Assembly: GCA_024694365.1 (NCBI GenBank)
Contig: JAILJX010000077.1
Location: forward strand, 1-64,000
Source of the DNA: Kiritimatiellia bacterium
GTDB lineage: Bacteria > Verrucomicrobiota > Kiritimatiellia > RFP12 > UBA1067
DNA length: 64,000 nucleotides
Direction: 5' to 3'
The translations under genes were made by a program, and so were the position numbers. Below are positions 4,699 through 48,632 of the stretch, piece after piece (position 1 is the first letter of the stretch; every line of letters starts with the position of its first letter). A model generated the notes under the pieces. That model was not told the DNA's origin and did no database searches. It was given only the letters and a program-made list of their open reading frames with translations.

Positions 4699-5619
4699 AT
4701 GACGGGATTCTTTCTTTTTGCCGCGGCGCTTGAGATCGCGACCAACGGGGTGACGCTCTCGGTGTCCTCGGATACGTCCGCGGTTGATCCCGGGCGCAGC
4801 GTATTCGTCAAGGTCGAGGCCTCCGCGCCGGCCGGCACCGAAGTGACGCTGCCGGACATCGGTTCGCGCCTTCGCGGGTTTGCCGTCTCCGACAGGATCG
4901 ACGGTGGCGAGACGACCGGCAAGGACGGCCGCAAGACCCTGAGGTCTGAATGGAAGCTTGTGCCGGAGCCCGTGGCGGCGCGATACGGCATAAAGCCTTT
5001 CGCGGTAAAGGCGGCGAGAGGGGCGGAGGACCTCTCTTTCGTCGCGGGCCCCCTGGATTTCGGCCTCCCCGCAGCCGCCGCGCGCGTCGAGGGCGGAATG
5101 GAGATATCCCCCGAGAAGGACAAACCGCCGTTCAGCTTCAAGCGGCTCCTCAAGAGCGTGTGGCGGTGGATGTGCCGCGAGCGGATGAAGATACTCGCCT
5201 TTTTCTGCGCGCTGCTGGCCGCGGCCCTTGTCGCATGCCTTGCCGTCTTCGCGGTGAAGCGGGTCAAGATGCATCTCATGAGCCCCATACAGCGCGCGTG
5301 GCTCGAGCTGGACATGCTTGTCGCCAAGGGGCTGCCGGATCGCGGACGCTACAAGGACTTCTATATCGAGCTTACGATGGTCGTGAGGCGCTACATCCAG
5401 AGAAAGTACGGCGTCAAGGCGCCGCATCTCACGACCGAGGAGTTTTTGCGGGAGATCGGCTCGGGCGGCGGCGGGGCGGTGCCGAACCGTCCGAAGCTGG
5501 CGGAATTCCTGGAAAGCGCCGATCTCGTCAAGTTCGCCGGCGTCGAGGCCTCCCCCGAAATGGCGGCCGGCGCGACGGAGTCCGCCCGTTCGTATCTTAA
5601 GGAGGATTCCCGTCCATGA
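4699..5619 (+). CDS. BatD-like membrane protein
   Basis: A 306-residue protein with an N-terminal signal or anchor, a β-rich extracytoplasmic region (about residues 15-150), one strong transmembrane helix near 172-196, and a cytoplasmic C-terminal domain of ~100 residues. This layout and its place between a DUF58 gene and a vWA gene fit the BatD/DUF4381-type component of Bat operons. Sequence similarity is only recognisable in general terms, so the family call rests mostly on context. Its stop overlaps the next start by 4 bp. Confidence 0.65.
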   Translation: MTGFFLFAAALEIATNGVTLSVSSDTSAVDPGRSVFVKVEASAPAGTEVTLPDIGSRLRGFAVSDRIDGGETTGKDGRKTLRSEWKLVPEPVAARYGIKPFAVKAARGAEDLSFVAGPLDFGLPAAAARVEGGMEISPEKDKPPFSFKRLLKSVWRWMCRERMKILAFFCALLAAALVACLAVFAVKRVKMHLMSPIQRAWLELDMLVAKGLPDRGRYKDFYIELTMVVRRYIQRKYGVKAPHLTTEEFLREIGSGGGGAVPNRPKLAEFLESADLVKFAGVEASPEMAAGATESARSYLKEDSRP

Positions 5620-6659
5620 CGTTCGCCCACCCTTGGCTTTTGCTGCTTTCCCTCCCCGTGGCGTTCGCCGCATGGCGGCTGCTGCGGCACGGCCGCAGAT
5701 CCGGCGTGAGATATCCCGTCGTCGGCCGCCTCCCCGCCAAGACGGCAGGTTGGCGCGCGGCGGTGGCGGCCGCCGCGCCGTTCTTGCTGCTGGCGGGCCT
5801 CATGCTTCTCGTGGCGGCGGCGGCCCGTCCCCGCAGGGCGACGGTCAGGACGGAGGACGTCGTCCGCGAGGCGGGGGACTCCATAGCGATCGTTCTTGCG
5901 GCCGATACGTCCGGCTCCATGAGCGAGATGGACCTGGCGCCGCCGGAGTGCCGCCAGGACGTGCGCAGGCTCGAGTCCATCTTCAGATCGGGCCACAGGC
6001 CGCCGCAGAGCGAAATCGACAGGGTTCTCGGCAAGGCGTCCCGCCTTGCGGCGGTCAAGGAGCGGTTCGCCGCGTTCGTCGCCAGGCGCGAGGGCGACCA
6101 GATCGCCCTCGTCACCTTCGGAACGTTCGCAGACGCCAGATCTCCGCTGACGTTTGACCACCGGACGCTTCTCGGCATCATGGAGGGCGTGAGCCTTCCG
6201 CGCAGGGATGACGAGAGCAGCACCGCCATAGGCGACGGGCTCGCGTATTCGCTGAAGCTCCTGGAGGATGCCAAGCAGAAGACGAAAATCGTCGTGCTGC
6301 TCTCCGACGGCATCAACAACTCCGGGGTCGTCGCGCCCATGGAGGCGGCGGAGATCGCCAAGCGGCGCGGGATCAAGGTATACACGATCGGGGTCGGCCG
6401 CGACGGCGAGTTCGATTGGAGGCTTCTCAAGTCGATAGCCTCCGGGACCGGCGGGAGGTATTTCAGCGTCAGCGACGCCGGAGCCTTCGACAAGGCCATG
6501 GAGGCCATAGACAGGATGGAGAAGTCCCCCGCGCGGGAGGTGCACACGAGGGTGCATACCGATTGGGAGGAGCTTTTCGCGCCGTGGCTCTACGGGGGCG
6601 CCGCGCTTGCCGCCGCGGCGATCCTGCTGTCGCTGGCGGCCTCCCGGCGTTTTGCGTGA
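5616..6659 (+). CDS. BatA-like vWA membrane protein
   Basis: A 347-residue membrane protein: two N-terminal hydrophobic segments (about 5-21 and 52-70), a von Willebrand factor A domain with the MIDAS motif DTSGS at 97-101 and a downstream VVLLSDGINNSG, and a C-terminal transmembrane helix. This is the BatA/BatB architecture, with the vWA domain facing the periplasm. An Arg/Pro-rich insertion of ~35 residues follows the MIDAS motif. It closes the moxR-DUF58-batD-batA run; a new promoter lies directly behind it. Confidence 0.88.
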   Translation: MTFAHPWLLLLSLPVAFAAWRLLRHGRRSGVRYPVVGRLPAKTAGWRAAVAAAAPFLLLAGLMLLVAAAARPRRATVRTEDVVREAGDSIAIVLAADTSGSMSEMDLAPPECRQDVRRLESIFRSGHRPPQSEIDRVLGKASRLAAVKERFAAFVARREGDQIALVTFGTFADARSPLTFDHRTLLGIMEGVSLPRRDDESSTAIGDGLAYSLKLLEDAKQKTKIVVLLSDGINNSGVVAPMEAAEIAKRRGIKVYTIGVGRDGEFDWRLLKSIASGTGGRYFSVSDAGAFDKAMEAIDRMEKSPAREVHTRVHTDWEELFAPWLYGGAALAAAAILLSLAASRRFA

Positions 6660-45161: not shown

Positions 45162-45947
45162 TTGAAGAAGATCGGATTTTTCGGCGCCGGCAAGATGGCG
45201 GAGGGCATCCTTTCGGCCATTCCGTCAAAGCGGGGCGTTTTCATGGCGGAGAAGGTCGCTTCGCGCAGAGCGGAACTTCGCGGGAAATACGGCGTGAAGA
45301 CGACAGCCGACGCGAAGGAGGTTGCGAAGGCTTCGCGGCTCGTGTTTCTGGCCGTCCGCCCGCAGGATGTGGACGGCCTTGCGGCCGAGGTGAAGCCTTT
45401 CTTGACTGCGGAGCACACCATAGTCTCCATCGTCGCGGGAAAAACTCTCGCGAAACTGCGCAAGGCGTTCGGTCCGAAGGCAAGGCTCGTGCGAGTCATG
45501 CCGAACCTCGCCCTGCGGGCAGGCGCCGGGATGTGCGCGATAACGGCTCCGGCATCGACTCCGGCGGAGGACGTGGCCGCAGTCGAGAAGATACTCGGCG
45601 GCGCAGGCGAGACCGTAATACTGAAAGAAAAGGAATTCGACGCGGTGACGGCGCTTTCCGGCTCGGGGCCCGCCTATTTCGCCTACATGGAGGAGGCGAT
45701 GGTCGAAGGGGGCGTCGCTCTCGGCCTCGCCCCGAAAACGGCCAGGCTCCTTGCGGAGCAGACGATGTACGGAACCGCTAAATTCCTGCGCGAAAGCGGA
45801 ATGGAGCTCAGGCCTTTCATAGAGGGCGTGTGCACAAAGGGCGGAACGACGGCCGCGGGCATGGAGAAGCTGGACGTGCCTCTGTTCAAGGAAACGGTCA
45901 GGGCTGCGCTCAAAGCGGCTGCGGACCGAAGCCGGGACCTTGCATGA
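45162..45947 (+). CDS. proC: Pyrroline-5-carboxylate reductase
   Basis: Makes proline from 1-pyrroline-5-carboxylate with NAD(P)H. The 261-residue protein has the Rossmann start KKIGFFGAGKMAEGIL, the conserved LVRVMPNLALRAGAG, and ALSGSGPAYFAYMEEAMVEGGVALGL with the C-terminal CTKGGTTAAGME. TTG 45162 is chosen because AAAGGAGGT (45148-45156) is a perfect Shine-Dalgarno and the family N-terminus fits. It overlaps nadD by 4 bp. Confidence 0.94.
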   Translation: MKKIGFFGAGKMAEGILSAIPSKRGVFMAEKVASRRAELRGKYGVKTTADAKEVAKASRLVFLAVRPQDVDGLAAEVKPFLTAEHTIVSIVAGKTLAKLRKAFGPKARLVRVMPNLALRAGAGMCAITAPASTPAEDVAAVEKILGGAGETVILKEKEFDAVTALSGSGPAYFAYMEEAMVEGGVALGLAPKTARLLAEQTMYGTAKFLRESGMELRPFIEGVCTKGGTTAAGMEKLDVPLFKETVRAALKAAADRSRDLA

Positions 45948-46459
45948 CGATAGGGATATTCGGCGGGAGCTTCGATCCTGTCCACAACGGACATGTCGGA
46001 ATCGCGAAAAAGGCGATGGCTTCGTTCGGGCTTGATCGCCTGATCGTCGTGCCTGCCGCGGTTTCCCCGTTCAAGACAGGTTCTGCCCCCAAGGGCGACT
46101 ACGACAGGCTTGAACTTTTGCGCCTTGCCTTTGCCGATGTCCCGGGGGCCGTTGTGGACGACAGGGAGCTCAAGCGCGGGGGCGTGTCGTACGCGATAGA
46201 TACCGTAAAGGAGATCGCCGCTGAAAATCCCGGCGTAAAAATCGTGTTTCTCGTAGGGGAGGATTCTGTGGAGGGGCTTCCGAGGTGGAAGGATTGGGAT
46301 GAATTGCGCAAACTTTGCGAGTTCAGATCGTTCCCCCGAACTCCTGAATCATCCACGGAGGTCCGGCGGCGTCTTGCAGCCGGGGAAGACGTTTCGTCTT
46401 TGGTCCCGCCTGCGACGCTGGATGGTCTTCTCGCATCCCGCCAGACTGGCCGGATGTGA
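45944..46459 (+). CDS. nadD: Nicotinate-nucleotide adenylyltransferase, internally shortened
   Basis: Makes nicotinic acid adenine dinucleotide in NAD synthesis. The 171-residue protein has the nucleotidyltransferase motif IFGGSFDPVHNGHVGIA and the C-terminal SSTEVRRRL (family ISSTxIR). Between the end of the substrate domain and this motif about 35 residues found in other NadD proteins are missing (CEFRSFPRTPESST joins directly). Stop is normal, so the enzyme may still work with a reduced loop or may be damaged. The CCGCGG palindrome array starts 40 bp behind the stop. Confidence 0.85.
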   Translation: MTIGIFGGSFDPVHNGHVGIAKKAMASFGLDRLIVVPAAVSPFKTGSAPKGDYDRLELLRLAFADVPGAVVDDRELKRGGVSYAIDTVKEIAAENPGVKIVFLVGEDSVEGLPRWKDWDELRKLCEFRSFPRTPESSTEVRRRLAAGEDVSSLVPPATLDGLLASRQTGRM

Positions 46460-46498
46460 ATGCGGTTCCCGGAATTTTTTCACCACGGTCGCTATGCG

Positions 46499-46648
46499 CT
46501 ATATCCGCGGATCTGCATTTCTGGCTTCGCGGAGCTATACAGTTAACTCCGCGGTTAAATTATTTAAGTCCGCGGAGTTATCTTTTATCTCCGCGGACTT
46601 AGCATCTTATCTCCGCGGAGTTATCGTGTTAAATCCGCGGACTTACAT
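46499..46648. repeat. Seven CCGCGG-centred palindromes at 21-22 bp spacing
   Basis: CCGCGG (or TCGCGG in copy 2) occurs at 46505, 46527, 46549, 46570, 46591, 46613 and 46635: spacings 22, 22, 21, 21, 22, 22. Copies 3-7 share the longer palindrome TTAwnTCCGCGGAsTTA (copy 3 has GGTTAA), with AT-rich 4-6-nt spacers. Two turns of DNA per unit place all centres on one helix face. In RNA, neighbouring units can pair: AAGTCCGCGGAG (46566-46577) with CTCCGCGGACTT (46589-46600). Function unknown. Confidence 0.9.
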
Positions 46649-46775
46649 CCATGTGAACGCGGTCGGTTTTTCCGCACATCCGGGGGCGCCGCCATGCGTC
46701 GCGATCGAGATTTGCGGAGAATCGCCTGAAGTCCGGTCGGTTCGCGGCCATGTAGACCTCCGGTCCGATTTTTGG

Positions 46776-46781
46776 TACAAT
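46776..46781 (+). promoter_or_regulatory. Extended -10 promoter of alaS
   Basis: TTTGGTACAAT with hexamer TACAAT. The leader is ~20 nt, with GGAAAGAAGG as Shine-Dalgarno before ATG 46809. Confidence 0.6.
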
Positions 46782-46808
46782 ATGCGGCTACGGAAAGAAG
46801 GAGACACA

Positions 46809-48632
46809 ATGAAGAATCTCACTGCGGATGAACTCCGCGACATGTATCTGAAGTTTTTCGAGTCGAAGGGGCATGCCATCATCCCCGGGGCGTCCGTGAT
46901 ACCCGAGAACGATCCGACCGTCCTCTTCACCACGGCCGGGATGCATCCGCTCGTCCCGTATCTCATGGGGCAGATGCCGCACCCTGCGGGGACGCGATTG
47001 ACGGATGTTCAGAAGTGCGTTAGAACGGGCGACATCGACGAAGTCGGCGATTCCGCCCATCTTACCTTCTTCGAGATGCTCGGAAACTGGTCCTTGAACG
47101 ACTATTTCAAGCGTGAAGCCATAAGCTGGTCGTACGAGTTTCTTACGGAGAAGCTCGGCTTCAAGCCGGAGCAGCTCAACGTGACGGTATTCCGCGGCGA
47201 GGGGAAAGAAGGCGAGGAGGGCTACATTCCTGCCGATGAAGAGGCAGTCGAAATCTGGAAATCCCTGGGGCTCCCCGACGAGCGCATCTTCCGCCTGCCG
47301 AGGGAGGACAACTGGTGGGGACCTGCGGGGACGACGGGTCCGTGCGGACCCGACACCGAGATGTTCATCGACACCGGCAAGGAGAAGTGCGGCGCGGAGT
47401 GCCGTCCCGGCTGCCACTGCGGAAAATACATCGAAATATGGAACGATGTCTTCATGCAGTACAACAAGAACGAAGAGGGCAAGTTCGTTCCGCTCGGACG
47501 CCACAATGTGGATACGGGAATGGGCGTGGAGCGCACCATATGCATGATGAGCGGCGCGCCGACGGTGTACGATACGGAGATTTTCGCGCCGATAATGGCG
47601 AAGATAGAGGAACTGTCCGCCGAGAGTCAGCTTTCAGGCGAGGAGCGTCTCAGGGCGAAGCGCATCGTCGCAGACCACATGAGGACGGCCACATTCATCC
47701 TCTGCGACCCCAAGGGCGGCGTGAAGCCGGGCAACATCGGCGCCAACTACGTCCTGCGCAGGCTTATCCGCCGCGCGGTGCGCTATGCCCGCCAACTTGG
47801 CATAGGTCCCGGCTTCACCGTGAAACTCGCTGAAGTGATCTGCGAGAAATACAGGCACGTATACCCGGAGCTCGGCGCCAATCTCGAGCAGTGCAGGCTG
47901 GATCTCGAGGCCGAGGAGAACCGCTTCAATGCGACGCTCGACAAAGGCGAGGCGATGTACAGGAAGGTGGCGGAACAGCTCAAGCTCCACGGACAGAGCC
48001 AGATAAGCGGAAAAACGGCCTTCAAACTGTACGATACGTTCGGCTTTCCGCTTGAGATGACGGTTGAAATGGCGACGAAGGACGGGCTTTCCGTCGACAA
48101 GGAGGGATTCGACGAGGCGAACCGCAAGCATCAGGAACTCTCCCGCACGACTTCGGCGGGTTCGTTCAAGGCGGGGCTTCAAGACAACTCCGAGGTCGTT
48201 ACACGCATGCACACGGCCACGCACCTTCTCCATGCGGCACTCCACAAGGTGCTGGGTCCGACGGCCAACCAGAAAGGCTCCAACATCACGGCGGAGCGGC
48301 TGAGATTCGATTTCACCTGGCCCGAGAAGATGACCGACGGGCAGATAAAGGAGACGGAGAAGCTCGTCAACGACTGGATTTCGCAGGGAATCGAGGTCAC
48401 GAAGAAGACGACCACGGTTGAAGAGGCGAAGAACGAAGGCGCGATGGCTCTTTTCGGCTCCAAGTACGGCGACCAGGTCTCGCTGTATTCGATCGGCGAC
48501 GTCTCGAAGGAAATCTGCTGCGGCCCCCACGTCTCCAACACGAAGGAGCTCGGAAGTTTCAAGATTGTGAAGGAGCAGTCGAGCTCCGCCGGAGTGAGGC
48601 GCATAAAGGCCGTAATCGGAAACATGGGCTGA
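46809..48632 (+). CDS. alaS: Alanyl-tRNA synthetase lacking the C-terminal domain
   Basis: Charges tRNA-Ala. The 607-residue protein has the class II catalytic domain (GMHPLVPYL, FFEMLGNWSLNDYF, CGPDTEMFID, VDTGMGVER), the tRNA-recognition helices, and an editing domain with TATHLLHAAL (HxxxH) and CCGPHVSN (CxxxH). It ends right after the editing domain (GVRRIKAVIGNMG). The linker and C-Ala domain of ~250 residues present in most bacterial AlaRS are missing and no remnant follows. The full ORF is intact, so this looks like a natural short form. Confidence 0.94.
   Translation: MKNLTADELRDMYLKFFESKGHAIIPGASVIPENDPTVLFTTAGMHPLVPYLMGQMPHPAGTRLTDVQKCVRTGDIDEVGDSAHLTFFEMLGNWSLNDYFKREAISWSYEFLTEKLGFKPEQLNVTVFRGEGKEGEEGYIPADEEAVEIWKSLGLPDERIFRLPREDNWWGPAGTTGPCGPDTEMFIDTGKEKCGAECRPGCHCGKYIEIWNDVFMQYNKNEEGKFVPLGRHNVDTGMGVERTICMMSGAPTVYDTEIFAPIMAKIEELSAESQLSGEERLRAKRIVADHMRTATFILCDPKGGVKPGNIGANYVLRRLIRRAVRYARQLGIGPGFTVKLAEVICEKYRHVYPELGANLEQCRLDLEAEENRFNATLDKGEAMYRKVAEQLKLHGQSQISGKTAFKLYDTFGFPLEMTVEMATKDGLSVDKEGFDEANRKHQELSRTTSAGSFKAGLQDNSEVVTRMHTATHLLHAALHKVLGPTANQKGSNITAERLRFDFTWPEKMTDGQIKETEKLVNDWISQGIEVTKKTTTVEEAKNEGAMALFGSKYGDQVSLYSIGDVSKEICCGPHVSNTKELGSFKIVKEQSSSAGVRRIKAVIGNMG

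Follow-up and report, generated by a model that had tools for sequence, protein, structure and literature searches.

HU proteins are textbook sequence-independent DNA benders, and we know of no DNA targets for the many additional HU-like paralogs found in gut Bacteroidota and related bacteria. For the HU-HIG and HU-DNA_bdg expansions of Bacteroidota (PF18291, PF14848, DUF4469), to which the array-linked proteins described here belong, comparative work has reportedly proposed partition or anti-mobile-element roles. To our knowledge, no cognate phased palindrome arrays have been reported for these expansions, and our literature search found no description of cognate arrays for HU families. Repeats placed upstream of a DNA-binding gene that they would repress are familiar from single-protein partition loci and autoregulated centromere arrays, such as pSK1 Par and ParR-parC; the arrays described here differ from these in that there is no plasmid, no motor protein and no evidence of segregation, and in the presence of dispersed solo arrays. 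In the ERIC/RU palindromic MITEs we know of neither phased sub-palindromes nor a linked HU gene.

In the RAYT–REPIN/BIME systems a protein gene lies beside its own palindromic repeats, gene-less copies of which are dispersed, and each group of repeats has its own protein (PMC3116915, PMC3733652). In our case, however, the gene belongs to the HU superfamily and does not encode a Y1 transposase, the GTAG/CGTC tag is lacking, the arrays consist of 4–8 units in a 22/23-bp phase, and the copies are few. RAYT–REPIN pairs (PMC3116915), together with single-protein centromere/operator arrays, are the closest systems in logic. In E. coli, HU itself acts with an extragenic palindromic repeat, REP325/naRNA4, and prefers cruciform DNA (PMC6907758), but the HU involved there is canonical and there is no sequence pairing, whereas here a private repeat lies beside each HU-like paralog gene. 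The ERIC/RU elements resemble the array analysed here in being intergenic imperfect palindromes of ~130 bp (127 bp for RU-1, PMC2759123). The BrickBuilt MITE of Porphyromonas gingivalis is likewise intergenic and dispersed, and combines a 23-nt repeat with long stem-loops (PMC4596501). Its repeats are direct, arranged head to tail and variable in number, and it has IS5-like ends, a leader and a tail, whereas the units here are palindromes and each family examined has a constant number of them; BrickBuilt was rejected as a counterpart.

Architecture of the array in the window

The window (the whole stretch of DNA analysed, 64,000 nucleotides) lies on contig C24 (76.6 kb) of a fragmented MAG of 2.46 Mb in 129 contigs, designated G000. 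The gap between nadD and alaS in the window contains seven quasi-palindromes, the computed centres of which are spaced by 22, 22, 21, 21, 22 and 22 bp, exactly as the first-pass annotation had claimed (Table 1). The CCGCGG core that it ascribed to all seven is present in six of them, the exception being unit 2 with TCGCGG (CTTCGCGGAG). Its statement that the array is not a CRISPR holds, since the units diverge, the period is 21–22 bp and the spacers are 5–6 bp long. With up to two mismatches, TTANNTCCGCGGANNTA occurs 11 times in the window, always within the array, while shuffled sequences gave a mean of 0.75 and a maximum of 4; this clustering is far beyond chance. Having at least four quasi-palindromes in steps of 21–23 bp, the array falls into a class that we propose here, the HU-linked phased palindrome arrays. 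Two degenerate units probably flank it, one on each side, and the GGTCG beside the left one is common to the flanks of the two related arrays described below. The T-tracts further out, 24 and 26 nt from the nearest CCGCGG, each have a background of 1% in the window.

Table 1. Coordinates of the array, its units and the adjacent features in the window.
Feature	Position	Strand	Remarks
nadD	45944..46459	+	neighbour outside the system; ends 38 bp before the array; ORF and homologs in 48/58 congeners
T6 tract	46475..46480	.	ends 24 nt before the first CCGCGG
Degenerate outer unit CCACGG	46483..46488	.	22 bp before unit 1; read from the sequence
Seven-unit phased palindrome array	46498..46647	.	overall dyad at unit 4 (46572.5); solo copy
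Unit 1 TATATCCGCGGATCTG	46500..46515	.	centre 46507.5
Unit 2 TGGCTTCGCGGAGCTA	46522..46537	.	centre 46529.5
Unit 3 TAACTCCGCGGTTAAA	46544..46559	.	centre 46551.5
Unit 4 TAAGTCCGCGGAGTTA	46565..46580	.	centre 46572.5; dyad centre of the whole array
Unit 5 TATCTCCGCGGACTTA	46586..46601	.	centre 46593.5
Unit 6 TATCTCCGCGGAGTTA	46608..46623	.	centre 46615.5
Unit 7 TAAATCCGCGGACTTA	46630..46645	.	centre 46637.5
Degenerate outer unit ACGCGG	46657..46662	.	centre 46659.5; 22 bp after unit 7
T5 tract on + (A5 read inward)	46667..46671	.	26 nt outside the last CCGCGG
alaS	46809..48632	+	neighbour; likely TACAAT -10 at 46776-46781, outside the array

The array as a whole is symmetric about unit 4, the dyad symmetry being 60% compared with ~25% for the background and 28–47% when the axis is shifted by one unit. 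As a single strand it folds preferentially into one long, imperfect hairpin that has unit 4 at its centre (−75.4 kcal/mol, z −6.6) and not, as had been supposed, into alternating short RNA hairpins of adjacent units. The stability of the folds, which is very high in all three arrays of this genome (z −6.6, −10.5 and −7.9), and the location directly after nadD would suit an element acting in transcripts as a terminator, an RNase III substrate or a stabiliser. Such a role is nevertheless very unlikely: the array is nearly strand-symmetric and lacks the terminator consensus, several inner hairpin pairs are broken in the window copy while the units and their phase are kept, and the arrays at HU loci precede promoter-like sequence. 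An Rfam search gave nothing above the gathering score, and a curated structured RNA was rejected on these grounds.

The array fills the nadD–alaS gap and lies ~165 bp before the alaS start, which may suggest a local operator serving alaS or nadD only. We consider this extremely improbable, as two further arrays occur at unrelated loci, the likely alaS promoter is downstream of the array, and nadD–alaS adjacency was not found by motif search in 29 congener loci; the alaS operator suggested in the first-pass annotation is likewise not supported. An identical 21-bp promoter-like sequence, ATTTTTGGTACAATATGCGGC, is present upstream of alaS (46767–46787 of the window) and upstream of a phosphomannomutase-like gene (L022:5833–5853).

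Related arrays in the same genome

Two more arrays were found in G000, on contigs C58 and C96, both with seven units and the identical 22-22-21-21-22-22 spacing. The window array aligns with them without gaps over 150 bp, on the minus strand. In the comparison with C96, 70 of 84 bases are identical at distances 0–3, 6 and 7 from the unit centres, while the spacer centres, with 12/38, are near random (Fisher p 4e-8); the units and their phase have therefore outlasted the spacers. The C58 and C96 arrays share 86% identity over ~280 bp, flanks included, and neither has A/T tracts 23–29 nt beyond the first core. Near each of these two arrays there is a duplicate of the beginning of a lipoprotein gene (Lcl_C-like; L021:1522–1574 and L022:4149–4201), in differing relative positions.

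A scan for phased arrays in 781 kb of G000 returned only the three arrays already named, and a covariance model matched only these and one different phased foldback in the congener G014. The search for the CCGCGG array in exact and degenerate form, covering 57 relatives, 388 genomes of the phylum, IMG/VR, phages and plasmids, gave only G000, the Bacteroidales genome G081 and chance matches. An Elusimicrobia match (L113) was set aside, having only two direct copies. That no array is found by sequence in other congeners is expected if the cores are private. Confinement to one site in one genome, which had been named as the observation that would speak against a dedicated system, does not apply in view of the C58, C96 and Bacteroidales arrays.

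Arrays upstream of HU-superfamily genes

The C58 array ends ~55 bp before an HU-like gene (L021:2959–3798). Its product is only a weak match to PF14848 (HU-DNA_bdg, E 5e-4, below the cut-off), which counts against the HU reading. The PF14848 cut-off was exceeded by 9 of 10 further HU proteins tested, several of which also contain the Ig-like PF14734. Phased palindrome arrays are also present upstream of a paralog of the C58 gene on contig C116 of G000, with the core ATTAAT, and upstream of a homolog in the congener G006, with the core TAGTACTA. The private cores of arrays before PF14848-type HU genes include CCGCGG, ATTAAT, TAGTACTA, TCGTACGA, GCCTTAGGC, ATGCAT, TGTCTGACA and others; CCGCGG, initially taken for the conserved motif, proved to be one of a number of cores, each private to its HU lineage.

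HU-like matches were obtained in 20/61 congeners by profile search, and 29 HU loci had enough upstream sequence for a dyad test (40-bp arms, score ≥0.62, within 480 bp). The threshold was reached by 14/29 HU upstream windows, compared with 7/279 general windows (p 1e-11) and 4/193 matched windows from G000 and G022 that precede ordinary genes (p ~3e-11), figures which are to be read with the score thresholds having been chosen after the first examples were seen, with the 14 hits representing ~11 lineages (orthologs are not independent), and with the first three hits having formed the hypothesis (11/26 without them). Two of the four positive controls were the C58 array and a solo array of G022, and a third was a CCCTAGGG array before ftsH. 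No array could be detected upstream of roughly half of the HU genes that were tested. The CCCTAGGG array, found blind in the control set, lies on contig C26 of G022 (L382, ~14.4–14.7 kb) directly upstream of ftsH, and no HU gene that might be its partner was found.

Nearly every HU-linked array of the congeners has a unit spacing of 22 or 23 bp, with 4–8 units, the one 44-bp gap being a missed unit; the two HU-linked arrays of G000 mix 21 and 22 bp. At most HU loci a -10-like TATAAT/TACAAT is found between the array and the start codon, and at L304 one unit overlaps the expected start of transcription, an arrangement that suggests autoregulation. Co-occurrence of a DNA-binding gene with the array, which the first-pass annotation had put forward as a check, is what we observed: HU-superfamily genes follow arrays in G000, in many congeners and in G081. 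The first-pass interpretation is partly supported: its central idea, that a dimeric DNA-binding protein occupies phased sites (as an operator or a nucleoid- or partition-like site), gains independent support from these arrays of the same build, while an alaS operator and a conserved CCGCGG are not supported. HU-like relatives were not found in viral contigs, PADLOC gave no defence match for the three proteins tested, and a PDB search by sequence gave no match.

Core sequences and solo arrays

The HU proteins L297–L299, which are 81–92% identical, have the common core TAGTACTA; L303 and L317, 60% identical, have TGTCTGACA in common, and L314 and L315, 39% identical, AAAGGT..ACCTTT. The C58 and C116 paralogs, 40% identical, differ (CCGCGG vs ATTAAT), and HU proteins that are ~40% identical or less mostly have different cores. 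Orthologs thus have their core in common and distant paralogs mostly do not, which fits a co-evolving protein–site pair in this small and informal comparison.

In three genomes an HU-linked array is accompanied by solo arrays of the same core at unrelated intergenic loci: G000 (the window and C96), G022 and G081 (~11). The 391 kb of G022 (~28% of the genome) contain two TAGTACTA arrays away from HU genes (L376 and L387); beyond the array itself and a few bases, these show essentially no similarity to the HU-linked copy. No HU-like gene was found on the 76.6 kb of the window contig, near the C96 array or near the solo arrays of G022. The window array has the same core as the HU-linked C58 array and no HU gene of its own beside it; it is a solo, gene-less copy.

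Arrays in a Bacteroidales genome

A scan of 84,980 species genomes gave a match in one Bacteroidales MAG (G081), on three contigs. At least 12 arrays are dispersed over the intergenic regions of this genome; they share the TTANNTCCGCGGANNTA consensus with the window array but are built of four units spaced by 22 bp. The seven copies that are complete are of one length and have sharp inverted ends, approximately GTTTATTATTTCCGCG...CGCGGAAATAATAAAC. A/T tracts end 23–29 nt outside the first core at 13/19 array ends (background 2.6%). In the flanks (L147–L158), A5-8/T5-8 tracts lie ~23–29 nt out and often again at ~50–53 nt, in either orientation. An HU-HIG gene (PF18291, E 4e-24) follows one of the arrays at a distance of 47 bp. 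The core shared by the G081 and G000 arrays may reflect convergence, since G081 was found by searching for that core, and the HU–array association is weaker in Bacteroidales (5/23 vs 3/109) than in the genus. On a Bacteroides finegoldii plasmid (NZ_OY725913.1, L326:3830–4006), CTTATCA...TGATAAG inverted repeats (dyad 0.675) are present just upstream of an HU family gene and are possibly an array in a cultured genus.

The discrete, intergenic nature of the solo arrays, their inverted ends and their unrelated flanks, seen in the equal-length copies of G081 and in G022, together with the ~280 bp shared by C58 and C96 and the proximity of a G014 array of TGACGTCA units to a phage-integrase-like gene, might also be expected of a MITE- or REPIN-like mobile foldback, in which the palindromes would be recognised by a trans-acting transposase or recombinase and the HU genes would be mere frequent neighbours or passengers. 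Clean terminal inverted repeats are indeed present in the G081 and G022 copies, while the window array shows an overall dyad only. Target duplications were not seen at the G081 copies, the best nadD match, at 71% identity, was too distant for a comparison with an empty site, and none of the arrays examined was noticed to have a transposase gene next to it. A RAYT link was rejected, as the sole Y1 (RAYT-like) gene of G000 is bounded by 40-bp inverted ends of its own that are unrelated to the arrays, and no such gene is present in G081; of the REP/BIME tag expected at the palindrome foot, GTAG was seen beside the C96 array only and was absent from C58, the window and the G081 ends. Mobility of this kind leaves unexplained why the cores track HU orthology and why the arrays are concentrated upstream of HU genes. 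We regard it as rather unlikely; it is partly compatible with a pairing of HU-like proteins and arrays.

Possible mode of action of the HU–array pairs

HU-type genes each preceded by a private palindrome array phased at 22–23 bp, with loose copies elsewhere, constitute an arrangement that was previously unnoticed. Judging from the sequence comparisons, the window array is probably a solo copy of the private binding array of the HU-like protein encoded on C58. In diversified HU-like families (PF14848, often with PF14734, and PF18291 in Bacteroidales), 4–8 private quasi-palindromes lie upstream of the promoter. Each palindrome would be bound by one HU-like dimer; owing to the two-turn phasing, the dimers would all lie on the same side of the helix and assemble a nucleoprotein array, whether or not the foldback is extruded as a cruciform. 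In cis, such an array may autoregulate its HU gene, while the solo arrays may serve in trans as dispersed nucleoid or gene-regulatory sites. The arrays may have spread as discrete foldback elements of 90–95 bp with four units or ~150 bp with seven.

HU proteins are classically not sequence-specific (PMC6907758), which counts against sequence-specific binding of this kind. A possible alternative is that the HU-like proteins bind extruded palindromes rather than read the sequence, since HU prefers cruciform DNA and partners REP325 in E. coli (PMC6907758). A more far-reaching proposal, to which we give only tentative credence, is that HU paralogs have become sequence-specific and form many mutually orthogonal protein–array pairs in at least two phyla, with every pair propagating its own phased array in its host, as self-propagating nucleoid or centromere-like systems or as a means of self/non-self marking.

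Private phased arrays beside HU-like genes would directly supply DNA targets for the expanded HU families, and the question of what these families bind and do would come down to simple binding and reporter tests. The pairing of HU proteins with arrays would also suggest a new route for the spread of palindromic repeats in genomes.

Other palindromic elements

The foldback of G014 is located on contig C92 (L181:1450–1760); it is of giant size, contains four TGACGTCA palindromes that are spaced by 22 bp within tandem units of 22 bp, and lies ~450 bp from the start of the phage-integrase-like gene (L181:199–984, minus strand). Pairs of TGACGTCA occur in viral contigs in about the number expected by chance, with a few phased arrays among them. 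Four-unit TGACGTCA palindrome arrays with 20–21 bp spacing were seen in the IMG/VR contigs L186, L187, L200, L202 and L224 and may be phage operators or centromeres. On contig C29 of G000 (L258, ~5255–5905), the RAYT-like Y1 transposase gene is flanked by 40-bp inverted repeats with tandem TACTCCACCACT, and beside it lies a 23-nt tandem repeat, CATTCGGCAGTTTGGACGGTTTC, in three copies.
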